DNA of 41,045 bases from Halorubrum ezzemoulense DSM 17463 (GCF_002114285.1 NZ_NEDJ01000025.1:1-41045); one strand, 5' to 3'; shown: positions 5,887 through 40,412, numbered from the stretch's first letter. Made by a program: numbers and translations. The notes: generated by a model not told the origin, from the sequence alone.

Positions 5887-6705
5887 TCAGGCACTAGCGC
5901 TGGCTGCGTCGGCGCTCCGCTTGAGCCTGATAATGAGACTAATCAGGAAGGTCCCTATCATCACCAAGAGCACGTTGACGGCCCCTCGGATTGCCGGCGC
6001 CGGGAGCGAAGTGGCGGTGGCGCCCTGTATAACGCTCACCGTCCCCACACAGATCAGCACGGCGATCACGTAGGTGACGGTGGCATCGAGGACGGTCCCG
6101 TGCGTCAGCCGACGCGCCCGAATCGCCTGTCCGAACGAGACCCCGTAAACGGTGAACGCACCGGACGCGGTCGCGACGATCACCTCCGCGACCACCGTCG
6201 GCCCGAGCCAGACAACGAGCGGGAACTGGATTAAGGCGAGCAGCATGAATCCAGTCTCGATCCGTCGGGCCGTCGACAGCGAGATCCGGGTTCCCTCGGT
6301 CGATGTCGCGGGCTGAGCGTAGTACAGTTCTCGGAGTGACAAGGCGAGGAAGACGGCAAAGAACAACTGTGAAAGGAGTCTGAACGCGACGAGAACCGTT
6401 CCAACTGCCGGGCGAGTCGTCTCGGCCAGCAACAGCGCCGAGAACACCCCTCCGACGGCCGTCGACAACGCGACGTACCGCCACACGAGCGTGTCATGCG
6501 GTTCGTGTCGCGCTGTTACCAGCGCGTACCGCGCCGTTCCGAGGCACGCGGCCAGCACGAGGACGAGGGCGACGAACCGAGTGACGCCGACCCCGAGTAC
6601 CGGTGACGAGGTACTAACGACCGCTGGTCCCGGCTCTAACGCGCTCGACCCGAGAGTCGCCGTCATCAGTTCGTTCCCGCCACGTTCGACGACGCGGTCA
6701 CGCAT
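5887..6705 (-). CDS. Seven-helix membrane protein of unknown function
   Basis: 272 residues with about seven hydrophobic helices spread over residues 30-262 and a short charged tail. The ATG at 6705 lies six bases after the pseudokinase stop at 6712, so the two genes form an operon; an in-frame ATG at residue 14 is an alternative start. The layout resembles haloarchaeal seven-helix sensors of HalX/Bat neighbourhoods, but no retinal-binding Lys pattern or catalytic motif is seen. It is probably a partner of the upstream pseudokinase. The IS insertion in that gene may cut transcription of this one. Confidence 0.75.
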   Translation of the reverse strand: MRDRVVERGGNELMTATLGSSALEPGPAVVSTSSPVLGVGVTRFVALVLVLAACLGTARYALVTARHEPHDTLVWRYVALSTAVGGVFSALLLAETTRPAVGTVLVAFRLLSQLFFAVFLALSLRELYYAQPATSTEGTRISLSTARRIETGFMLLALIQFPLVVWLGPTVVAEVIVATASGAFTVYGVSFGQAIRARRLTHGTVLDATVTYVIAVLICVGTVSVIQGATATSLPAPAIRGAVNVLLVMIGTFLISLIIRLKRSADAASASA

Positions 6706-6985: not shown

Positions 6986-7914
6986 TGCTGTGTTGAATAG
7001 ATGCTGAGTCACGGTTAAAGCGGCTCACACAGTGGTTCTATGTTGGTGATGGCGAACATCAAGACGATTTCACGGAACTGCCGATACCAGCCCAGCGCTC
7101 GCACGGCGTCGCCGAGCGAGCGCTTCGTTGTCGAATACGATGTTTCGGCCATCCACCGCTGAGAGTAGCCCTTCGCTCGGTTGAGTGCGTTATTCGCAGC
7201 TGCGTTCGCTGACGAGCCGCGGTAATGAACGAGGTACTTAACGTCATATGCGGCGATTTCGTACTCGGTATGCCAGTCTTGGAAGCCGTTGTCGGCGGCG
7301 ACGGACTGCAGGTCGTCCGCGTTTCGGCGGACGACCTGCGGTCCAGTCTTCGTATCATGCTTCCACCGAGCTGCGATGTGAAGATCAAGAACAGCCAGCG
7401 ATTCCACATCTGTCAATGTCGTCACTTTCAGCGTCTGTATCGTTCGTCCTGCCCGCTGGCGAAAGTACGATGACGCACGTCGGCGATCGAAGAACGTGCT
7501 GTCGAGAGCGGCGTGGCCAGACTGCGGGTGCTGCTGCGCGGAAACGCGCAGCAGCGCCCGCCATACCCACATTTTCAGCCGATCAAACGACTTGTAGATC
7601 GTCGTGTGATCAGGGAGGTCGTCCCGAGCTAAGTCGAGAGCGTCACGAACTTCGTCCATGTACTTCAGCCCATTCGGTGTTTCACGGTAGCTGTGGGTCT
7701 CTTCGACCCGAAAACAGTGGAGAACGACATGAACCCAGCGGGCGAACCCGCCGCTGGCGGGCTCGCCCGCATGCTTCCCCAACGCTTGTTTAGCTAGGTG
7801 ACGACACTGCTCGATGAAGTCGAGGATATCGATCTCCATGTCAGGTTCGATTTCCTCGGCTTCACCCTTCTAAACCCGTGATATCGGCTGATAAGATCGC
7901 TCTTCAACAGAGCA
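6986..7914 (-). mobile_element. Complete IS5-family (ISH1-group-like) insertion sequence, 929 bp
   Basis: The ends are inverted repeats: TGCTGTGTTGAA at 6986-6997 and, on the other strand, TGCTCTGTTGAA at 7914-7903 (11 of 12 match). The element holds one transposase gene and is flanked by an exact 8-bp duplication. It sits in the same orientation as the pseudokinase gene that it disrupts. Both ends, the duplication and an intact DDE transposase make it look functional. Confidence 0.93.
7015..7839 (-). CDS. IS5-family DDE transposase
   Basis: 274 residues, full length for the ISH1-type group. The catalytic triad is Asp113 (ALDSTFF), Asp183 (AADNGF) and Glu232, the last in the IS5 signature R228-x3-E232-x6-K239 (RWMAETSYSTTK). 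The protein binds the 12-bp inverted repeats and catalyses cut-and-paste movement. The ATG at 7839 lies 75 bases inside the right end, and the stop is 29 bases from the left end. No frameshift is needed, so the element is probably autonomous. Confidence 0.95.
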   Translation of the reverse strand: MEIDILDFIEQCRHLAKQALGKHAGEPASGGFARWVHVVLHCFRVEETHSYRETPNGLKYMDEVRDALDLARDDLPDHTTIYKSFDRLKMWVWRALLRVSAQQHPQSGHAALDSTFFDRRRASSYFRQRAGRTIQTLKVTTLTDVESLAVLDLHIAARWKHDTKTGPQVVRRNADDLQSVAADNGFQDWHTEYEIAAYDVKYLVHYRGSSANAAANNALNRAKGYSQRWMAETSYSTTKRSLGDAVRALGWYRQFREIVLMFAITNIEPLCEPL

Positions 7915-7922
7915 GTATCTCG
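7915..7922. repeat. Target-site duplication, right copy (GTATCTCG)
   Basis: Exact second copy of the 8-bp sequence at 6978-6985, immediately outside the right inverted repeat. Deleting one copy plus the IS restores the reading frame of the pseudokinase gene. Confidence 0.93.
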
Positions 7923-9106
7923 GAGAACGTAGTCTCCGGCCCGAACACTTCCCGCAGTCCCCAGTCGCTGACCCGCGGAAAGGCCCACGCGTCAGGGTCT
8001 TCGACGGCGTTGACCGCAGTAATCACGCCCGGCCACATCGCACCGTGAAGCACGCCCGCAGCGTGTGCGTACTGAACCGCGTCGGCGATCTGTAACAGAA
8101 TCCACCTGGCTTCAGCCGGTGAGACCGGCGTCTCTCTCTCGGTGAGGAGCCCCAGTGCGCCCCGCTCAGAGACGAGCCACGGTACGGGGCGCGTTCCGGC
8201 GTCGACGACGCGTGCGACAGCGTCATGATCGTCGATCCGACGCCACCGCTCGATCGCGTCCCGAAAGGCGTCGTCATGCATACCGCTGGCGATCACACCC
8301 CGGCGGCACGTCGCTGTGAATTCGCGCCCGCTCGTCGCGAATTGGATGCGCTCGGCGTCTGAATCGCCGGCTGCTTCAGCAGCCTCTCTTGACCTGTGTT
8401 CGGTCAGCGATCGGTCGAGTCGGGGTGGCTTCGCAGGGGGCTCGTTTGGGGGATGTCCGGGCGTCGGCGACGCGTCCTCGCCGTCCGCGGAGCCGGTCGA
8501 CTCCTCCCGGCCCGCCGCGACGGCGGGTTCGGTCGGTGAGATCGCTTCGTCCCCTTCGTCCGCGATCACTGACCCGCCGGATTCGAACTCGGGGGGTTGA
8601 TAGCCGGCGACAGTCCGGATGGCAAGTGACTCGTCAATCAACCCGGCTTCGACCGCCCCGTCGATGATCTCGGCGACCGCCTCCTGGTTGTGGTCATCGA
8701 GCACCGCGAGAGTTCGAAGCGCGACCGACCGGGCCGCTGGATCGCGAAGCGCTCGTCGGAACCGTCCGGCACAGGCGTTGACGAGTTCGGGCGTCTCCGC
8801 GGACACGAATCGAAGTGCCCACGACGCGGCTCGTTGAACTTCCTCGTCGTCGTGCTCGAGCTGCGCCACGACCCGCGCGGTCCGCGCGGCGTCGAACGAT
8901 TCGGGATCTGTGAGCGCCGCCTCGAGCAGCTCGTTCGGGTCCGGCGTCAAGTCCGTTCGGTCCATGATGATACTCTACCCAACAGCACGTCGTCACGTGG
9001 TCTGCTCAACCTGAGAGAGTCACGCTAATAAATCACGCTACATCACCCACGGTCCGCTCGATCTCCACCAAACGACTTCGGGGGTCGAAGACCAAGGTGT
9101 ACCGAG

Positions 9107-23407: not shown

Positions 23408-24580
23408 TCAGAACAGCGACTCCAGCTCCCCGTCGCTATCCATCAGCTCGGTGAAGCGGTCCTCGCTCTCGTCGGTGATCTCGCCCAGATTCTGTTGCGC
23501 CTCGACCGCGACCTGCTGAAGCTCCTTCACTCGCGGGACGTTCGTCACGCCGCCGAGCAGGACGAGCCCCGCGACGGTTCCCTCGCCGCGTCGCGGGTAG
23601 TCGCCGCCGCGGACCTCCATCGACCCGGTCTGTTCCTCGAGCCACTTGCGACCGTGCTCGATGCCCTTCCGGTTGAGATACTCCGGCGGCCCGGCGACGA
23701 CGAGCAGCGCCCGCTCCGTCCCGCTCACCTCACACGGCAGAGTGAGCCGACCGAGCGTCGCCTTCCGGACGAGGCTCGTGATCCGATTGGTGGCCTCCGT
23801 GCTGTCGATCCCCTCGTTCGAATCGTTGCCGAACCGCGAGAGCAACCCCGACCGCTTCGGTTCGTCGACCTCGACGTCGGCGTACCCCAGCGACGAGATG
23901 CCGCCGCCCTTGAGCGTGTTGATGATCTCGGAGGAGTCGACCACGCTCTCGGCGACGTCGCTCCCCTCGGTGATTTCGCCGGCGCTGAAGAGCACGCCGA
24001 ACCGCTGGACCAACTCCCTGTTGATCGCGTCGAACCCTTCTCCGACGGACTCGCCCGAACTGCGCCACGCGTCGTTGTCGAACAGCATGAGGTTGTCCAC
24101 CTCGTCGACGAACGTCTTGAGCGAGCGGGCGGCGTTCAGCGTGTAGATCCCGCCCTCGTCGCTGCCGGGGAGGATGCCGAGCCCGTAGACGGGTTCGGTG
24201 TAGATCCGTTTGAGGTTCTTCGCGATCACGGGTGCGCCACCCGATCCCGTCCCGCCGCCCAGCCCCGCAACGACGAGGAACGCGTCGATCTCGTGGACCG
24301 GCACCGAGTCGAGCGCCCCCTGGATCTCGTCGATGTCCTCCTCGGCCACTTCCGCGCCCAGTTCGTTGTCCGCGCCCACCCCGTGGCCCTTGACCCGCGA
24401 TTGCCCGATCAGGATCCGGCGGTCCTCCGGAAGGCGGTCGATCCCGTTGAGGTCCGCCTTCGCCGTGTTGACGGCGATCGCTCCCCGAACGATGTCTGCG
24501 CCCGTCTGTGCGTCGTAGGCCAGGAACTCGTCGACTACCTTCCCACCTGCCTGTCCGACCCCGATCAATGCGAGTTTCAC
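23408..24580 (-). CDS. cetZ: CetZ, archaeal tubulin/FtsZ-family cytoskeletal GTPase
   Basis: 390 residues from the GTG at 24580, which yields the family's canonical start VKLALIGVGQAGGKVVDEF; an ATG at 24595, five codons upstream, sits 24 bases after a TTTATC box and is an equally possible leaderless start. The tubulin signature GLGGGTGSGGAP, the T-loops around DNDAW and the conserved RVKGHGVGADNELGAE block mark CetZ rather than FtsZ. The tail ends in the CetZ motif ELESLF. CetZ polymers control cell shape and motility beneath the haloarchaeal membrane. It follows a three-gene operon at 106 bases and is divergent from an actin homologue 1.4 kb away. The paralogue number (CetZ1, CetZ2) cannot be set without a tree. 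Confidence 0.95.
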   Translation of the reverse strand: MKLALIGVGQAGGKVVDEFLAYDAQTGADIVRGAIAVNTAKADLNGIDRLPEDRRILIGQSRVKGHGVGADNELGAEVAEEDIDEIQGALDSVPVHEIDAFLVVAGLGGGTGSGGAPVIAKNLKRIYTEPVYGLGILPGSDEGGIYTLNAARSLKTFVDEVDNLMLFDNDAWRSSGESVGEGFDAINRELVQRFGVLFSAGEITEGSDVAESVVDSSEIINTLKGGGISSLGYADVEVDEPKRSGLLSRFGNDSNEGIDSTEATNRITSLVRKATLGRLTLPCEVSGTERALLVVAGPPEYLNRKGIEHGRKWLEEQTGSMEVRGGDYPRRGEGTVAGLVLLGGVTNVPRVKELQQVAVEAQQNLGEITDESEDRFTELMDSDGELESLF

Positions 24581-24701
24581 GTGAACACACCGCATGTATC
24601 TACGCGGGTCGGACTGATAAAGGTTAGAAGCCGCCTCAGCGTAGCGTGAACGACTGCTTCCCCGGTACAGGAAGCCGCGGTGTTCACAGGCGGGAGTGGC
24701 G

Positions 24702-25052
24702 TCACGAGTCGTCGTCCGCGGACGCGTCGGAGTCGCGCCGTTCGGTCGACGGATCGGCACCGACGCTCGGACCGTCGGCAGGAGTCGCCCCGGTGTCGTC
24801 GTCGCCGCCTTCGTTACGAGCCTGCTTGAGTGCGTCGACGGCGCTGTCCGTCGATTCGACCCGGGTTTCGGTCACGCCGCTCGGATCGAGTTTCGGCTCC
24901 GCTGCGGCCTCGGTGCCAGTTTCGTCGGCGGCCGAGCCGTCGGTCTCGTCGGCGGCCGGGGTATCGACCTCGGCGTTCGCGTGTGGGTCCCCGTCTCCGT
25001 CGGCGTCGCCGCCGAGGCCGAGCCACGATCTGAGTGTGTCAAGAAGTCCCAT
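24702..25052 (-). CDS. Small acidic disordered protein with amphipathic N-terminus
   Basis: 116 residues, strongly acidic and rich in Ala, Asp, Glu and Thr, with no predicted fold apart from an N-terminal amphipathic or hydrophobic stretch (MGLLDTLRSWLGLGG) that could touch a membrane or a partner, and a short helix around DSAVDALKQARNEGG. The ATG at 25052 is two bases after the stop of the preceding gene, so the two are one operon. It is the last gene before cetZ. An N-terminal membrane-targeting helix with a disordered tail would suit a cytoskeletal adaptor, but this is a guess. Confidence 0.75.
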   Translation of the reverse strand: MGLLDTLRSWLGLGGDADGDGDPHANAEVDTPAADETDGSAADETGTEAAAEPKLDPSGVTETRVESTDSAVDALKQARNEGGDDDTGATPADGPSVGADPSTERRDSDASADDDS

Positions 25053-25054
25053 CG

Positions 25055-25819
25055 TTAGTAGTGTTTAAACAGGGCCGCGCGAACGTCGTCTTTGGTGCGC
25101 GCGGTCTCGACGCTCCCGTCCGGCAGTTCGACCTCGTAGCGGGCGTCGCCGTCGGCCGAGTCCCACTTGTCGCTGTGCGTTTCGAGCAGGCTCAACATCG
25201 CGTTGAGCTGACCGTCGTCTCCGGCTTGGTCGTCGGCGTCGGACTCGGCGGCGGTATCGCTCTCGTCGCCGCCGTCCTCGGCGTTGTCGTGGTCCGCTTC
25301 GGGACTACCGTCGTCGTCGTCGTGGTCCGCTTCGGAACCGCCCTCGGCGGAGTCGGTGTCTGCTCCGGAGCCACCGTCGTGGTCGGCGTCGGGTAACTCG
25401 ACGTCGACCGGCGCGAACGGGGCCGTGTAGCGCCGTTCGGCGACGTCGAGGATCGCCGTCACGAGCTCTCCCTTGGTCATGCTGCTGCGGCCCGAGACGT
25501 CGTACTCCGCAGCGATGCTGTACAGGTCCATCGGGTCGTCCGGGTTTGCGTCGCTGTGGCGGCGATTACGCTCGCGAAGCCGCGCTTCGAGCCGCTCCCG
25601 CGGAAACCCGCCGTCGTCGTCGTCGTCGGCCTCCGATCGGTTGGTATCGACCGCCGCCCGGCGGTCGGGGTCGTCGACGGCGTCGGCGAGGTCGAGGAGG
25701 GAGGCCACGGTGTCGCGCAGTGTGACCGAGGTGTATCTGTCGGCGTGCGCGTCGGTGAGCTCTTCGCGCAGCGCGGCGATGCGGTCGCGTTGGTCGTCGG
25801 TGATGTCGATCGATGGCAT
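25055..25819 (-). CDS. Acidic protein with SAP/Rho_N-like domain
   Basis: 254 residues. Residues 1-55 are helical (ITDDQRDRIAALREEL, coiled-coil style), an Asp run follows, and about 95-132 resemble the Rho N-terminal/SAP helix-extended-loop-helix (MDLYSIAAEYDVSGRSSMTK followed by GELVTAILDVAERR). A long Asp/Glu/Gly/His-containing low-complexity linker (about 140-205) leads to a small C-terminal domain (NAMLSLLETHSDKWDSADG to the end). SAP-like folds often bind nucleic acid. The ATG is three bases after the stop of the zinc-ribbon gene. Function unknown. Confidence 0.8.
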   Translation of the reverse strand: MPSIDITDDQRDRIAALREELTDAHADRYTSVTLRDTVASLLDLADAVDDPDRRAAVDTNRSEADDDDDGGFPRERLEARLRERNRRHSDANPDDPMDLYSIAAEYDVSGRSSMTKGELVTAILDVAERRYTAPFAPVDVELPDADHDGGSGADTDSAEGGSEADHDDDDGSPEADHDNAEDGGDESDTAAESDADDQAGDDGQLNAMLSLLETHSDKWDSADGDARYEVELPDGSVETARTKDDVRAALFKHY

Positions 25820-25822
25820 GGG

Positions 25823-25999
25823 TCAGGACTCCTCGTGGAACCGCCGGAGCGCGTCGTCCCAGCTCTCGACGACCGTCCGATCGCCGGAGTGATCGGCCTC
25901 GACGCCGACGTAGCCGCACGCCTCGCACGCGAGCGCCTCGACGCCCGCCAGCGTGAACGCGGTCAGGCTGTCGCCACACCGTGGACAGTCCGGCTCCAC
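25823..25999 (-). CDS. 58-aa zinc-ribbon protein, first gene of the CetZ-side operon
   Basis: From the GTG at 25999 the frame gives 58 residues and ends TGA at 25823-25825, three bases before the next ATG. Two knuckles, CPRC (5-8) and CEAC (25-28), form a zinc ribbon; the tail is a helix (VVESWDDALRRFHEES). An in-frame TGA three codons upstream makes the GTG the only possible start. Its tight spacing with the next gene and typical ribbon pattern make it a real gene despite its size. Possible roles are transcription or protein binding. Confidence 0.85.
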   Translation of the reverse strand: MEPDCPRCGDSLTAFTLAGVEALACEACGYVGVEADHSGDRTVVESWDDALRRFHEES

Positions 26000-26086
26000 T
26001 GTTGATCAGTTGAACCTCAGTCGCGGAGTTGTTAAGGACTAGGGTCGGGGGGAACAATGATTACAGTCGGGGCGGAACGCTCCCGT

Positions 26087-26977
26087 ATGAGCGAGGCGAC
26101 CGACTCGAACCAACTCCTCCGGTACTACCGACGATACATCGGCGACCCCGACCGGACCGTCGACGTGTACGCCGGGTTCGGCCTCTTCTTCGTCGGACTG
26201 GTCGCGGGTGCCGTCAGCGTCGTGGTGTTCCTCTACAGCGCGACGTTGCCGGCGGCCTCGTCGTCCTCGTACGCGATCCGCGAGGTCGCCGGCGTCGCCA
26301 GCGCGGTCGGATTCCCGGCGCTGCTGCTCGGAATCGTTGTCCTGCTGCCGGTCGACAAGCGGATGCTGTACGTCGCCGCCGCGGGCTCGGTGATCGACCT
26401 CGTCGCGGTCGGCCTCTTCGTGTGGGCCTACCCGCAGGACTGGAACGTGACCGTGCCGCCGGACTACAGCGCGCAGGTCATCGCCCTCTACAGCGTCGGT
26501 ATCGCGCTCGTGGTCGCCGCGACCGGCGCGGCCCTCGTCGCCCACCGGGTCGAGCGCGCGGTCGACGAGACGGGCGAGGCCGAGGCGACCGAGGCGGACG
26601 CGGAGGAGACGGAGACCGTCAGCGACGAGCAGGTACGGTCCGACATCGACAGCGCGCTCGACGACGCGGAGCTCTCCTGGGGCGGCGTCAGCCGCACGGA
26701 GACGCGACGGCTGAACCTCGACACGAGCGCCATCGACGACATCGACAGCGAGAATCTGCCGGACTCCGGGATCGAGACCCGGACCAGCGACGGCAACGTC
26801 TCCGACGCGGTCTCACAGCTACAGGGCCTCCAGGGCGGGGAGGTCGAGACCGCGAGCGGCGAGGGGACCGACGACCAGGCGGCCGCGCTCCGGGAGCTCC
26901 GCGAACAGCAGCGCGAGGAGGAGGAGACCGATGCGACCGGCGAGGGGCTCATCGACCGGATCCGCGGGCTGTTCTAA
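26087..26977 (+). CDS. Membrane protein with cytoplasmic acidic tail (DUF7139-like)
   Basis: 296 residues from the ATG at 26087 (MSEATDSNQLLRYYRRYIGD); an ATG ten codons upstream (26057) is possible but adds an unlike extension. Four membrane helices (about 30-52, 70-90, 95-118, 132-155) are followed by a 140-residue acidic, partly helical cytoplasmic tail ending in EGLIDRIRGLF, an amphipathic motif. The family is haloarchaeal and uncharacterised. It lies 51 bases upstream of the salactin-like gene and divergent from the CetZ-side operon, so a membrane anchor or regulator for the actin-like filament is a reasonable hypothesis, not shown. Confidence 0.85.
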   Translation: MSEATDSNQLLRYYRRYIGDPDRTVDVYAGFGLFFVGLVAGAVSVVVFLYSATLPAASSSSYAIREVAGVASAVGFPALLLGIVVLLPVDKRMLYVAAAGSVIDLVAVGLFVWAYPQDWNVTVPPDYSAQVIALYSVGIALVVAATGAALVAHRVERAVDETGEAEATEADAEETETVSDEQVRSDIDSALDDAELSWGGVSRTETRRLNLDTSAIDDIDSENLPDSGIETRTSDGNVSDAVSQLQGLQGGEVETASGEGTDDQAAALRELREQQREEEETDATGEGLIDRIRGLF

Positions 26978-27028
26978 GCATCCTGTCTTCCTACGAAAAC
27001 TTATGTGGATTCGCTTTGAGGTTAGCGT

Positions 27029-28054
27029 ATGGCCAAGGGACTTGACGTTGGCACGATGAATATTCTCTCCGCGCGTCAGGAAGGCGCAGAAACCGTCTTC
27101 GTGCAACAGCGGAACTCGTTCGTCGAGATCGAGTACAGCGACATGGCCGAGCAGATGCTCTCCCGGAGCGAGGTCCTCCACATCCGAAAAGACGATCAGG
27201 TGTACGTCGTCGGGGACGACGCGCTCAACTTCGCGAACATCTTCAACCAAGAGACCCGTCGCCCGATGCAACACGGGATCCTCTCGAGCGACGAGTCCTC
27301 GGCGATCCCGATGATCAAGCTCATCACGGAGCAGGTCGTCGGCGAGCCGTCGCGGCACAACGAGCGGCTCTACTACTCCAGTCCGGCTGACCCCATCGAC
27401 TCGGACCTCTCGACGCTGTATCACGAGAAAACGCTGGAGTCGATGCTCGGCGACATGGGGTACGACCCGGAGCCGATCAACGAGGGCATGGCGGTCATCT
27501 ACTCCGAGCTGGCCGACAACAACTTCACCGGGCTGGGGATCAGCTTCGGCGCGGGGATGACCAACGTCTGTCTGGCGTACTACGCGGTTCCGGTCATGAA
27601 GTTCTCTATCGCCCGCGGCGGCGACTGGGTGGACGAGCAGACCGCGCAGGCGACCGGGACGCCGGTCGACAAGGTGACCTCCATCAAAGAGGACGACTTC
27701 GAGCTGGACTTCCGGACAGACGTGGGGGGCGTCGAGGGGGCGCTCGCCATCTACTACGAGAACCTGCTCGACTACGTGATAGAGAACATCACCAGCGAGG
27801 TCGACGAGGAGGACATCGAGGAGGGCCTCGACGTTCCGGTCGTCGTCACGGGCGGGACCTCGAGCCCCAACGGCTTCGAAGATCTGTTCGCCGACCACCT
27901 CGAAGACGCGAACATCCCGTTCTCCATCAGCGGCGTCCACTCGCCGGACGAGCCGATGTACAGCGTCGCCAGCGGGGCCCTCGTGGCCGCCCGCTCCGAA
28001 GAGGAAGAGGAAGCCGAAGAACAGGAGGTCGAAGAGCCCGCCGCCGAGGAGTAG
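27029..28054 (+). CDS. Salactin-like archaeal actin homologue
   Basis: 341 residues with the actin ATPase fold: phosphate-1 loop [13 protein letters not shown] at the start, phosphate-2 [16 protein letters not shown] (about 170-185) and adenosine motif [13 protein letters not shown] (about 270). It closely recalls salactin of Halobacterium salinarum, a dynamically unstable filament growing from the cell poles. The C-terminus is a Glu-rich tail (about 320-341). It has its own promoter, AACTTATG about 27 bases before the ATG (leaderless), and a T-tract terminator right after the stop. The DUF7139 gene precedes it and the CetZ operon is divergent. Confidence 0.93.
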
Positions 28055-28055
28055 C

Positions 28056-28076
28056 GCCGCCGCGGCTTTTTTTTTT
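28056..28076 (+). terminator. Terminator of the salactin-like gene
   Basis: A GC-rich self-complementary stretch (GCCGCCGCGGC, 28056-28066) begins directly after the TAG stop and is followed by ten T residues (28067-28076). Archaeal transcription stops at T-tracts, so this should end the actin transcript. It is the longest T-run seen in this window. Confidence 0.8.
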
Positions 28077-28077
28077 A

Positions 28078-28158
28078 CGCGTGTCCGAGAGCGCGCAGAC
28101 TGGAGTCCGCGCGTACTGACGGCTTCGCCGTCGTGTACTGCTCACGCTCGGATACGTG
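28078..28158 (+). other. Strongly folding multibranch element between actin and acylase genes
   Basis: Three nested helices account for most of the 81 bases. An outer 12-bp stem joins 78-89 to 147-158 (numbers plus 28000; two G-U pairs). Inside, hairpin 1 pairs 91-95 with 108-112 and 98-100 with 105-107 (loop TGGA). Hairpin 2 pairs 114-116 with 135-137 and 118-123 with 127-132 (loop TTC). No tRNA T-loop or anticodon arm is seen. It could be a small RNA, a 3'-end structure, or a small palindromic mobile element; nothing in the sequence decides. Confidence 0.5.
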
Positions 28159-28177
28159 AACCTCCCCGATCCGATCC

Positions 28178-36774: not shown

Positions 36775-37584
36775 TCAGGCGGCGACGGAGAACAACAGCA
36801 GGTTGTGCGCCGCGGGGCCGAGCCCCATCGCGGCGACGAACCCGAGGAGGAGGTAGCCCTCTCCCGGAGTCTCCCGGACGTATGCGGCGAACAGCCAGAC
36901 CACGGCGCTCGCGACCGCGAGCTTCACGAGGAGGAACAGCCACCCGTCGCCGATCACCGGAAGCGAGGGCAGTCCGCCGATCTCTAAGAGGATCCGCGAC
37001 ACCGGCGTGCGCTCGCCGAAGCCGAGCTGCGTCGTCCCGACCGCGGTCGAGACGCCGTCGAGCGCGTGCCCGAACACGGCGAGCGCGCCGACGCCGCCGG
37101 TGACCGCGACCTCCGGCCGGAAGCGGGTCAGCCCGAGCCAAGCGCCCCCGGCGATCGGAACGGTGAGCCCGAGCGCGACGGCCGACCAGCGCGCGCCGAC
37201 GGGGGAGAGTCCGGCCCCGACCGCGGCCGCGACGACGGGGACGAGGAGGGCGACGCCGGTGGTCGCGAGCGTGCCCCCGACCCGTTCGGGACGGGCGGCG
37301 TCGGCGGCGAGCCACGCCGCGCCCGCCAGCGACCCGACGGTGAGGTAGACGGTCGGCGAGCCCGCAAGCGGCGCGATCAGGGGCGGGAGCGCGTCGACGA
37401 CGTAGAGGACGTGCGCGGCGGAGCCGAGCGCCATCCACGGCGCGAGCGCGAGCACCCGGCGACCGGTGACGGCGGGGCGGCGGCGGCGAAGCGCGGCGAC
37501 GACCCCGCCGGTCGCGAGCAGGACGGCGAGGAGGTGCGGGAGGGGCGGCAGGGTCGTGCCGGCCGGGAGGAGGCCGCCGACCAT
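36775..37584 (-). CDS. DUF63 family membrane protein
   Basis: 269 residues with about eight hydrophobic helices. The loop PWMALGSAAHVLYVVDALPP and the VFGHALDGVSTAVGT motif are typical of DUF63, an archaeal membrane family of unknown function. The ATG at 37584 overlaps the stop of the upstream Usp gene by one base (TGATG), so the two are translated from one mRNA. The link between a stress protein and a DUF63 protein is only positional. Confidence 0.88.
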   Translation of the reverse strand: MVGGLLPAGTTLPPLPHLLAVLLATGGVVAALRRRRPAVTGRRVLALAPWMALGSAAHVLYVVDALPPLIAPLAGSPTVYLTVGSLAGAAWLAADAARPERVGGTLATTGVALLVPVVAAAVGAGLSPVGARWSAVALGLTVPIAGGAWLGLTRFRPEVAVTGGVGALAVFGHALDGVSTAVGTTQLGFGERTPVSRILLEIGGLPSLPVIGDGWLFLLVKLAVASAVVWLFAAYVRETPGEGYLLLGFVAAMGLGPAAHNLLLFSVAA

Positions 37585-38033
37585 CAGACGGACAGCACGG
37601 GCTGGCTCGCGTACAGGAGGACATACTCCGCCGCCTTCCCCAGCACCTCGCCGGGGTCGCCGGAGACCGGCTCGCGCGGGACCACGATGAAGTCCGACTC
37701 CAACTCCTCCGCGGTGTCGAGGACGACGCTTCCCGGGTGGACGGTCTTCACCGACGTGGAGAAGCCGTAGGCGATCGAGTTGCTGTGGGGGACCCCGGCC
37801 GTCTCCGCGCGGCGGGCGACGGAGTCGGTGAACGCCTCGGAGTCGTCGGCCACCTCGCTCTCGTCGACCACGCCGTGGTCGATGGCGCGGACGACCTCCT
37901 CGTCGAGGACGTACAGCGCGTGGACGCTCGCGTCGTACTCCGCCGCGAGTGCGATGGCGTAATCGACCGCCTCGTGAGACTCCTCGCTGCCGTCGACGGG
38001 CACGAGGACGAGGTCGATGTCGAGATCGGTCAT
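37584..38033 (-). CDS. Universal stress protein (UspA family)
   Basis: 149 residues from the ATG at 38033 (DIDLVLVPVDGSEESHEAVD); nine extra upstream codons are open but lie before the usual start. The UspA fold is clear: strand 1 VLVPVDGSEES, VHALYVLDE, and a C-terminal IVVPREPVSGDPGEVLGKAA with PVLSV, the place of the G-x2-G-x9-G nucleotide loop, here GDPGEVLG. ATP binding is possible. It is coupled to the DUF63 gene. Regulation under stress is the usual role. Confidence 0.92.
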   Translation of the reverse strand: MTDLDIDLVLVPVDGSEESHEAVDYAIALAAEYDASVHALYVLDEEVVRAIDHGVVDESEVADDSEAFTDSVARRAETAGVPHSNSIAYGFSTSVKTVHPGSVVLDTAEELESDFIVVPREPVSGDPGEVLGKAAEYVLLYASQPVLSV

Positions 38034-38103
38034 ACCCGGGTCGTCGGCGGGGGAGGTCAAAAAGCCCGCCCCAACGGCCTCGGCGGCCGCGAGTGAGCGA
38101 GAG

Positions 38104-38853
38104 TCACTCCCCGCCGCGGAACGGCTCCAGCGACGGCGTCCAGTCGTACTCGCGGTAGCGGATCTTGGGCCTCGCGTCCGCGTCGATCACCCCGTACCGC
38201 CGGAGCCGCTCTCGGATCCCGCTCCTCCCGCCGAAGTCCCCGCGGTACCACAGCATGAGCCGCGGGACGCGGGCGGTGCCGTCCGCGACGACCGTCTCGC
38301 CTCGCAGGTACGTCTCGGCGGCGTGGTCGAGCGCCTCGTCGACGGTCGCCGGGTCGTAGGCGAAGACGGCCGGACAGGCGGTGGCGCCGCAGTTGACCGC
38401 GAAGTGGATCCGCGGGTCGAGATCGGCGACGCGGTGCCGGCGGACGAACGCCGAGGGGAACGGGTCCGGCAGGTATCCCAGCCCGTACTTCCACTTCGAG
38501 CGGCGTAAGATTCCGTGTTCGATCTCGTCGAGGCTCAGGTCGGCGCCGGCGACGGAGACGACGGACGCGGCGAAGAAGCGGCGCCGGTTCGACAGCCGCG
38601 TCGGGTCGTCGAGGAGGGCGTCCCCGGTGGCGGCGTTGTAGACGTTGATCCAGAACGCCAGCTGCTCCGCGGCGTCGAGGGCGTCCAGCGCGGCCGGCGG
38701 CAGCGCGTCGAGCCGTCGTCGGGCCGCGTCGACGTCGCCGTCCGTTCGGACGGCCCGGAGGAACTCCCGCGCGGCGTCGACCGGAGCGGGCTCCGCGGCC
38801 GCGCCGCTCGCAGCTTCGACGGGCGAGCCGGCGGTCCCGCTCCGTTCGGTCAT
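38104..38853 (-). CDS. DUF547 domain protein
   Basis: 249 residues. After a low-complexity Ala/Glu/Pro N-terminus, the DUF547 core begins at about 60 with AEQLAFWINVYNAATGDAL, includes LSLDEIEHGILRR, and has DPRIHFAVNCGATACPAVFAYDP with two conserved Cys. The fold resembles transglutaminase-like Cys-His proteins, although activity is not established. An AAATATA box 27 bases upstream of the ATG predicts a leaderless transcript. Divergent from the redoxin gene. Confidence 0.9.
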   Translation of the reverse strand: MTERSGTAGSPVEAASGAAAEPAPVDAAREFLRAVRTDGDVDAARRRLDALPPAALDALDAAEQLAFWINVYNAATGDALLDDPTRLSNRRRFFAASVVSVAGADLSLDEIEHGILRRSKWKYGLGYLPDPFPSAFVRRHRVADLDPRIHFAVNCGATACPAVFAYDPATVDEALDHAAETYLRGETVVADGTARVPRLMLWYRGDFGGRSGIRERLRRYGVIDADARPKIRYREYDWTPSLEPFRGGE

Positions 38854-38869
38854 ACTGCGTGAACGAGTG

Positions 38870-38935
38870 TCATTGACCTATATTTGGCCCGGTTCCGCGC
38901 GCGGTGCGCCACACCGACTCCCCGTTTATGCGGCG
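38870..38935. promoter_or_regulatory. Divergent promoters of the DUF547 and redoxin genes
   Basis: On the minus strand AAATATAGG (about 38878-38886) lies 27 bases before the DUF547 ATG (38853). On the plus strand GTTTATG (about 38925-38931) lies about 27 bases before the redoxin ATG (38955). Both fit leaderless starts and confirm these two start choices. Confidence 0.65.
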
Positions 38936-38954
38936 AGAGCGCGTAGCGGGCGCC

Positions 38955-39473
38955 ATGAGCGACACTCGGACGTCCGCCGAGGCGGTCCCCGACTTCGAGT
39001 TGCCGAACGCGGGAGCGGGTCCCGACCGATTTTCACTGTCGGCCGCGGCCGCGGACCCCGACACCGACGCGATCGTCCTCCTGTTCCAGCGCGACTACCA
39101 CTGCGGGAACTGCCGGAAGCAGGTCCAAGCGATCGCCGACCGGTACGACGAGTTCGAGGCACTGAACGCGACGGTCGTCTCCGTGCTCCCCGAGCCGGTG
39201 GGCCGAGCGCGGTCGTGGCAGGACTCGTACGACCTCCCGTTCCCGCTGCTCGCCGACCCCGAGACCGACGTGAGCGACGCGTACGACCAGCCCGTGCGGT
39301 TCGGGGTCCTCGGCTCGCTCCACGACCTCGTCGGGCGGATGCCGGTGGCGATGATTCTCGACGCTCGCGGCGGCGAACCGGTCGTCGCGTACGCGTACGA
39401 GGGTCGGATGCCCGCCGACCGCCCCGAGATCGACGACCTGCTGGCCGAGGTCCGCGGGCTGGGCGACGACTGA
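38955..39473 (+). CDS. Redoxin / AhpC-TSA-like peroxiredoxin family protein
   Basis: 172 residues from the ATG at 38955; the upstream open frame runs across the promoter. The thioredoxin fold has FELPNAGAGPDRFSL (about 14-28), a LLFQRDYHCGNCRKQVQAI active-site region with CGNC (about residues 53-56), and PFPLLADPETDVSDAY. The CxxC resembles thioredoxin-like redoxins more than the single peroxidatic Cys of typical peroxiredoxins, so thiol-disulfide reduction or peroxide removal are both possible. The UbiA gene starts three bases after the stop. Confidence 0.9.
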   Translation: MSDTRTSAEAVPDFELPNAGAGPDRFSLSAAAADPDTDAIVLLFQRDYHCGNCRKQVQAIADRYDEFEALNATVVSVLPEPVGRARSWQDSYDLPFPLLADPETDVSDAYDQPVRFGVLGSLHDLVGRMPVAMILDARGGEPVVAYAYEGRMPADRPEIDDLLAEVRGLGDD

Positions 39474-39476
39474 CCG

Positions 39477-40412
39477 ATGGACCGGCGCGTCCCGGCCGCC
39501 CTCTGGCGGCTCTCGCGGCCGTCGCAGGTCGCGCTGATCGGCTTAGTGTACGCGCTCGGCGTCGTGATGGCGTACGGCCGGGGGTACGGCGAGACGGGGG
39601 GCGCAGCGCGGCTCGGACTCGGGCTCGCGGCGCTGATACCGGTCGCCGCGAGCGTCCACTACGCTAACGAATACGCCGACGTCGAAACGGACGCGCTCAC
39701 CGACCGCACCCCGTTCTCGGGCGGGAGCGGCGCGCTGGTCGAGACCGACCTCCCGCGGAGGATCGCGCTGCGCGGTGCGGTCGCCGCCGGTGGGCTCGGC
39801 GTGACCCTGACCGGCCTCGGGGTCGCGAGCGAGGCGACCGGGCTCGCCGAGGCGGCGCTCCTGCCGCCGACAGCGGCCGCCCTCCTCGCGGGAATCCTCG
39901 TCGTCGGCTGGCAGTACTCCGTCGGTCCGCTCCGGCTCGCGTGGAACGGGCTGGGCGCGCCAGCGAACGCGCTCCTCGGCGGCGTCGCGCTCCCGCTGTA
40001 CGGGTTCGCGGTCGTCGCCGGGGAGGTCACCGCCGCCGCCGCGCTCGCGACGCTTCCGTTCGGCGCCACGGTGTTCGTGAACCTCCTGGAGACGACGTGG
40101 CCCGACCGCCGGGCGGACGCCGCGGTCGGGAAGCGGACGCTCGCGACGCGCTGGTCGCCCCGGCGGCTCCGGGCCGCGTACGCGCTCGGGGGCGCGACGG
40201 CGGCCGTCGCGACCGTCGCCCTCGTCGGGCGAGCGCTCCCGCCGGTCGTGGCCGCGGCGACGCTGCTCCCGCTCGTCGGGCTCGTCCCCGGCTACCGACA
40301 GTTCACGCGGCGCGAGGAGCCGCTGCCCGCGGTGGCGACGATGGTCGCGATGGCGGCGACGACGACGGTCGCGTGGGGGTTCGTCGCGCTCTGGGTCCGG
40401 CCGGGCGCGTAG
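39477..40412 (+). CDS. UbiA family prenyltransferase (MenA-like)
   Basis: 311 residues, eight or nine membrane helices. The first prenyl-diphosphate motif is NEYADVETDALTDRTPFSGG (about 62-81), with Asn and Asp residues that hold magnesium; the WQYSVGPLRLAWNGLGAP stretch (about 143-160) is the MenA-type signature. The enzyme attaches an isoprenoid chain to an aromatic or lipid acceptor in the membrane; menaquinone synthesis (dihydroxynaphthoate) fits best. It follows the redoxin gene after three bases, so the two form an operon. No other menaquinone genes are in the window. Confidence 0.9.
   Translation: MDRRVPAALWRLSRPSQVALIGLVYALGVVMAYGRGYGETGGAARLGLGLAALIPVAASVHYANEYADVETDALTDRTPFSGGSGALVETDLPRRIALRGAVAAGGLGVTLTGLGVASEATGLAEAALLPPTAAALLAGILVVGWQYSVGPLRLAWNGLGAPANALLGGVALPLYGFAVVAGEVTAAAALATLPFGATVFVNLLETTWPDRRADAAVGKRTLATRWSPRRLRAAYALGGATAAVATVALVGRALPPVVAAATLLPLVGLVPGYRQFTRREEPLPAVATMVAMAATTTVAWGFVALWVRPGA

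Follow-up and report, generated by a model that had tools for sequence, protein, structure and literature searches.

The locus described here raises the question of whether a tubulin homologue and an actin homologue that lie 2.4 kb apart in a haloarchaeal genome belong to one cytoskeletal unit, and what the small genes between them contribute. It is located in a 41,045-nt stretch of Halorubrum ezzemoulense DSM 17463 (GCF_002114285.1 NZ_NEDJ01000025.1:1-41045), which is called the window throughout and corresponds to contig C73 of a Halorubrum genome of 3.6 Mb (G000). The original prediction, made from the sequence alone, took the pair for a CetZ tubulin and a salactin-like actin in divergent operons with uncharacterised partners, and all six genes that it placed in 23408-28054 are present at about the positions proposed. 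The analysis assigns the small genes to the actin: they are probably its dedicated partners, and the DUF7139 membrane protein among them is a likely membrane receptor or tip anchor, to judge from its sequence and distribution. The CetZ gene is an incidental neighbour. The actin, which is a volactin, and its putative partners form a block with the following features.

24633-28164 (3.5 kb), no strand: inserted five-gene volactin block, without a counterpart at the same site in three relatives
24702-25052, minus strand: small acidic protein with an amphipathic N-terminal helix (alignment A5, 14 orthologues)
25055-25819, minus strand: SAP/Rho_N acidic protein (PF07498, E 2.5e-6; alignment A3)
25823-25999, minus strand: 58-aa zinc ribbon, specific to volactin genomes (PF13453, E 6.8e-6; alignment A4)
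26087-26977, plus strand: DUF7139 subtype B (DUF7139-B), with four predicted membrane helices and a cytosolic tail (PF23600, E 2e-45)
27029-28054, plus strand: volactin, an actin homologue (PF25216, E 5.2e-135)

The zinc-ribbon, SAP/Rho_N and DUF7139 identities of the original prediction each have a Pfam match, and only the name given to the actin has to be changed. The protein is a full-length member of the volactin family PF25216 (450.5 bits against a cut-off of 35, positions 1-321 of 321) and is 86-87% identical to volactins from other haloarchaeal families. A salactin identity was rejected, as the match to PF25229 reaches 14.1 bits, below the cut-off of 27.1, and the genome has its own salactin elsewhere, on contig C79 (585 bits). 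Salactin of Halobacterium salinarum, a haloarchaeal actin homologue with dynamic filaments, serves for comparison but belongs to a different Pfam family. VolA (HVO_2015) of Haloferax volcanii is in the same family as the window protein, and in other Haloferax species volactin likewise follows DUF7139-B and faces the zinc ribbon. In contrast to Haloferax, the window volactin stands in a five-gene block with the SAP and acidic genes, and the neighbouring CetZ is of the CetZ1 type in the window and CetZ5 in Haloferax.

Evidence for a partnership comes from co-occurrence over 232 genomes of Halobacteria, 136 with full-length volactin and 96 without it. DUF7139-B is a subtype defined in this analysis by a volactin-specific tail and a score of at least 277 bits to profile A2 (volactin-linked DUF7139); scores to this profile are bimodal, none of them falling between 114 and 277 bits, and the window protein, with 440 bits, belongs to subtype B. 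This subtype accompanies volactin in 136 of 136 genomes and is found in 1 of the 96 others (both 136, volactin alone 0, DUF7139-B alone 1, neither 95). The zinc ribbon follows closely with 133 of 136 against 1 of 96 (both 133, volactin alone 3, zinc ribbon alone 1, neither 95), and the SAP protein with 116 of 136 against 1 of 96 (both 116, volactin alone 20, SAP alone 1, neither 95). The sole exception, G187, is a fragmented assembly of 180 contigs with the whole partner block; apart from it, all nine genera that contain both states are concordant for DUF7139-B. The idea that the small genes serve the actin is thereby strengthened, since DUF7139-B, the zinc ribbon and the SAP protein track volactin over the whole survey, unlinked cases included.

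Outside standard Halorubrum, DUF7139 lies directly upstream of volactin and the zinc ribbon is close by (80 named loci and 25 others). Most Halorubrum genomes are arranged differently: volactin stands alone beside eIF1-like and UbiA-like genes (named by eye, not by family search), and the acidic, SAP and zinc-ribbon genes are divergent from DUF7139 at a site apart from volactin. Of 22 Halorubrum genomes, 21 keep both volactin and DUF7139-B without linkage between the two. Their joint absence falls at separate points of a Halorubrum marker tree, which is drawn from one 6-kb region and has some weak branches. G207, which lacks both, is sister to G006/G177 with 100% support, and a further joint absence is found in the G198/G227/G065/G097 group. 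These patterns bear on the possibility that the genes travel as a hitch-hiking or mobile cluster, joined by transfer and not by function. Such a cluster would agree with the variable flanks of the five-gene blocks and with the location of the Haloarcula marismortui DUF7139-B locus on plasmid pNG700. However, unlinked copies co-occur equally strictly, losses of unlinked members coincide in Halorubrum, the parts are always the same ones, and the junctions carry neither repeats nor a transposase, all of which makes this explanation highly improbable.

Several separate observations concern the volactin loci of other genomes. On the 410-kb plasmid pNG700 (L254, NC_006395.1 102439-115323), the DUF7139-B match and the neighbours at the volactin, zinc-ribbon and SAP positions are all annotated as hypothetical. 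Natrialbaceae-type genomes encode a second actin domain like that of volactin, which scores 395-435 bits and forms the N-terminal part of proteins of 1013-1222 amino acids (L123:4474-7863, L124:4026-7097, L125:1758-5405, L126:4239-7280, L127:4424-8092). The remainder of these proteins, in the two searched against Pfam, matches the coiled-coil families spectrin, tropomyosin and crescentin-like, and they are thus actin-coiled-coil fusions. The SAP gene of such genomes lies about 12-14 kb from the fusion gene and not beside volactin (G107:C2:301909-317268, G025:C38:15995-31171, G193:C1:1843268-1856493). Moreover, the volactins of Halorubrum vacuolatum and of a metagenome-assembled genome (MAG) labelled Halovenus (the L055/L058 pair) are near-identical on a long branch (0.44 substitutions per site), which may mean that the MAG is wrongly labelled or binned. 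A fusion of DUF7139 with volactin was also considered; one fused gene call is left (L057), which is probably a frame artefact, and a fusion is not claimed.

The anatomy of the partner proteins suggests what they may do. DUF7139-B matches PF23600 with 154.5 bits against a cut-off of 30, and its membrane helices are predicted at residues 31-49, 69-87, 96-114 and 131-149. The cytosolic tail of about 140 residues contains the conserved stretches LSWGGV, TETR..VDDAV..LxGLxGG and DDQxxxLxELR and ends in an amphipathic stretch. The other two haloarchaeal DUF7139 groups have the same membrane domain with tails of DUF7140 or DUF1508, without the subtype-B motifs; type C carries five DUF1508 stretches (L178:7568-9241) whereas type A has a Cys-rich DUF7140 end (L144:8429-9532). 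The SAP/Rho_N protein has the conserved C-terminal domain KWxxxDGDARYEVELPDG...RTKDDVRAxLFKxY. The acidic protein, for which no Pfam match was found, has one conserved segment, LDPxxxTETRxxxxTDDAVDALR. The amphipathic ends described in the original prediction hold against shuffled sequences: the hydrophobic moment is 0.68 for the acidic-protein N-terminus of the window (p about 0.01), with a weaker signal in some orthologues, and 0.70 for the DUF7139 C-terminus (p about 0.03). In addition, the acidic protein and the DUF7139-B tail have a motif in common, located as follows.

24813-24890 (approximate), minus strand: motif LDPxxxTETRxxxxTDxAVDALK in the acidic protein
26768-26839 (approximate), plus strand: tail motif xETRTxxGxVxDAVxxLxGLxGG in DUF7139-B

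When a model of the acidic segment is compared with 2810 proteins, the 18 best non-acidic matches are all DUF7139-B (best E 0.004), one of which, L159, was assigned to the subtype from its sequence. The reverse search with the tail motif places acidic proteins on top, and a comparison by hhalign gives P 3.6e-4. Shuffled controls give at most 2 matches below 0.1 per run against at least 17 observed, the observed matches being related to one another. In G201 the tail motif is kept beside volactin and neither the zinc ribbon nor the SAP protein is detected, and volactin is therefore the likeliest partner of the motif.

In general terms, a filament could be joined to the membrane by a membrane protein that acts together with a protein bearing an amphipathic helix. 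As DUF7139-B is present in every volactin genome and carries a volactin-specific cytosolic tail, it is the best candidate for a tip receptor. It would be an integral-membrane receptor with a cytosolic tail on which volactin filaments dock, the filament tips being the most likely point of contact. The acidic protein, bound peripherally to the membrane, would be a further protein that presents this docking motif. The zinc ribbon and the SAP protein may be soluble regulators of assembly or expression, and CetZ would have no part beyond that of a neighbour. That DUF7139 and the acidic protein may serve as membrane anchors, which had also been predicted, is suggested by these sequence features. The fuller proposal, that the block is a dedicated membrane-linker module for an archaeal actin, with DUF7139-B as tip receptor and the acidic protein presenting the same motif, inherited and transferred as a unit, can be put forward tentatively. 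The FtsZ/FtsA tethers with amphipathic helices (SepF, FtsA, ZipA) follow a like functional scheme but have no sequence relation or detectable fold relation to the window proteins.

Several results weigh against this interpretation. Volactin and DUF7139-B are adjacent in 112 of the 136 genomes, where one deletion could remove both genes, so linked losses are not independent. The SAP protein was not detected in Haloferax, and not every part is thus obligate. The motif evidence is moderate, with a best E of 0.004, an hhalign probability of 37% and some shuffles with equally good single matches. A fold search with DUF7139-B and the SAP protein gave no match at E of 0.001 or below for models of low confidence, and AlphaFold2 confidence is low for the DUF7139-B tail itself.

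The same co-occurrence data would also fit a signalling or regulatory module. In such a module DUF7139-B would act as a sensor of the membrane or envelope and, together with the zinc ribbon and the SAP protein, would govern the expression, assembly or turnover of volactin without physical anchoring. The DUF7139 paralogues with different soluble tails (DUF7140, DUF1508) resemble modular sensors in this respect, and zinc ribbons and Rho_N/SAP domains typically belong to regulators linked to nucleic acids. On the other hand, G201 retains the tail motif next to volactin where the two putative regulators are not detected, and the motif is common to two putatively membrane-associated proteins. Regulation without anchoring is accordingly regarded as rather unlikely, and a set of volactin partners with DUF7139-B at the membrane is preferred.

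The next question is how these genes came to lie beside a tubulin gene. In the block, the acidic, SAP/Rho_N and zinc-ribbon genes run leftwards, divergent from DUF7139-B and volactin, which run rightwards. Three relatives (G244, G225, G238) have the same locus of the tubulin gene, here called cetZ1b, with the penicillin-amidase and CinA-like flanks and without 24633-28164. By blastn, window positions 24632 and 28165 are adjacent with a 2-bp overlap in L185 and L191 and with a 5-bp gap in L183. No terminal repeats and no transposase were found at the block junctions, and a transposon-type insertion was rejected for lack of terminal repeats. The native volactin site of the window genome is empty: C144:36186-37474 and 37514-40058 (L232, L233) are 39 bases apart, where a relative has 1.2 kb including volactin. 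DUF7139-B, the zinc ribbon and the SAP protein are present in the window genome as single copies only. In trees of volactin DNA and of DUF7139-B protein, the window groups with Halonotius pteroides, H. persicum and L040, all of which have its five-gene order, and stands apart from standard Halorubrum; support is modest (48-89) for some of the branches that group it. The simplest reading is that the block entered in a single piece between cetZ1b and the penicillin-amidase gene and that the native volactin was lost; alternatively, all three relatives may have deleted the block, which needs more steps. These data are best explained if the block takes the place of the dispersed set that is native to Halorubrum.

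The tubulin gene and the promoter elements of the locus are as follows.

23408-24580, minus strand: cetZ1b, a CetZ1-type tubulin homologue, incidental neighbour of the block (PF21011, PDB 4b46 match)
24616-24622 (about), minus strand: TATA element in the promoter of cetZ1b, situated outside the inserted block and conserved in the cetZ1b loci of relatives
26052-26065, plus strand: conserved element AACAATGATTA upstream of DUF7139-B, at about -35 to -22 (65 DUF7139-B upstream regions)
26994-27005, plus strand: volactin's own promoter, with B-recognition element (BRE) and TATA, leaderless (A/T enrichment at -30 to -26, 76 loci)

The CetZ protein is a member of its family by both domains (PF00091, E 1.2e-33; CetZ_C PF21011, E 1.6e-79) and aligns along its entire length with H. 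volcanii CetZ1 (PDB 4b46; 609 bits), with a CetZ1-like C-terminus. Despite this likeness, the gene is a Halorubrum paralogue. The canonical CetZ1 of the genome is encoded by another gene on contig C97 (L175), which is 75-76% identical to the window gene and recurs in nearly all Halorubrum genomes; cetZ1b is found in about 21 of 52 and does not count as the canonical orthologue, for which the conserved cetZ1 neighbourhood is the mark. About 20 other Halorubrum genomes, some of them without volactin, have copies 85-96% identical to it. Its start is taken as GTG 24580 from the relatives, which have ATG there, and not as the upstream ATG. As side observations, cetZ1b of H. persicum and G013 (L173:8183-9457, L174:5505-6723) adjoins a pair of related small membrane-like proteins that are not beside the window gene. 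Directly downstream of G013 cetZ1b (L174:9805-11963) are look-alikes of the window gene pair 7904-8965 and 5887-6705 (HEAT-like by eye and a putative membrane protein).

The original prediction had both arms read from one short promoter region at about 26000-26086 and saw in a shared locus a pointer to common control of CetZ and actin, and these points did not survive. CetZ and volactin each have their own promoter: the cetZ1b TATA element lies on the native side of the insertion junction, the volactin TATA at -30 to -26 has A/T in 86-99% of the 76 loci, and DUF7139-B has a separate conserved element at about -34. Among 31 Halorubrum genomes of known volactin status, cetZ1b shows no association with volactin (7 of 22 with volactin, 4 of 9 without; p 0.68). 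In 105 volactin loci with a called volactin gene (80 named and 25 others), a close CetZ was found only in the window and in Haloferax, and for its CetZ part the window order was found in this one genome among those examined, a result that the original prediction had named as refuting. One shared, co-controlled locus for CetZ and actin could still appeal to the short distance here and to Haloferax cetZ5 (HVO_2013), 0.5-0.7 kb from volactin in a region linked to shape in the searched text of PMC10869688, and two independent adjacencies may slightly exceed chance. However, the two lineages differ in CetZ type (53-56% identical), position and strand, other volactin loci lack a close CetZ, and cetZ1b occurs in volactin-less genomes. 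Because the site is empty in relatives, co-occurrence is absent and the promoters are separate, CetZ was rejected as a member of the unit. For the window a shared locus is largely refuted, and the chance that it exists is slight. The CetZ-actin adjacency is incidental: cetZ1b adjoins volactin only through the block insertion.

According to the searched text of PMC10869688, which describes the VolA filament of H. volcanii, contact of volactin filaments with the membrane is by the tips alone, the binding factors are called unknown, and HVO_2013-2020 is a shape-related region; CetZ5 is HVO_2013 (PMC10927574). Volactin is implicated in Haloferax disk-shape transitions and tissue-like development (PMC10869688, PMC7617734). 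Partner proteins of volactin are not described in the searched text of PMC10869688, and no mention of DUF7139, HVO_2014, HVO_2016 or HVO_2017 was found in the literature searched. A survey of CetZ neighbourhoods (PMC9856176) does not report actin in its text, and poor synteny has been reported for salactin (PMC10746226). If H. volcanii shares the gene order of other Haloferax species, HVO_2014 should encode the zinc ribbon and HVO_2016 DUF7139-B. The adjacency of CetZ and actin is not to be taken for a joint cytoskeletal operon. Instead, the phyletic profile names uncharacterised candidates for volactin partners, namely DUF7139-B, the 58-aa zinc ribbon and, in most lineages, the SAP protein, and because DUF7139-B and the zinc ribbon lie directly beside volA in Haloferax loci, these candidates can be tested in H. 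volcanii.

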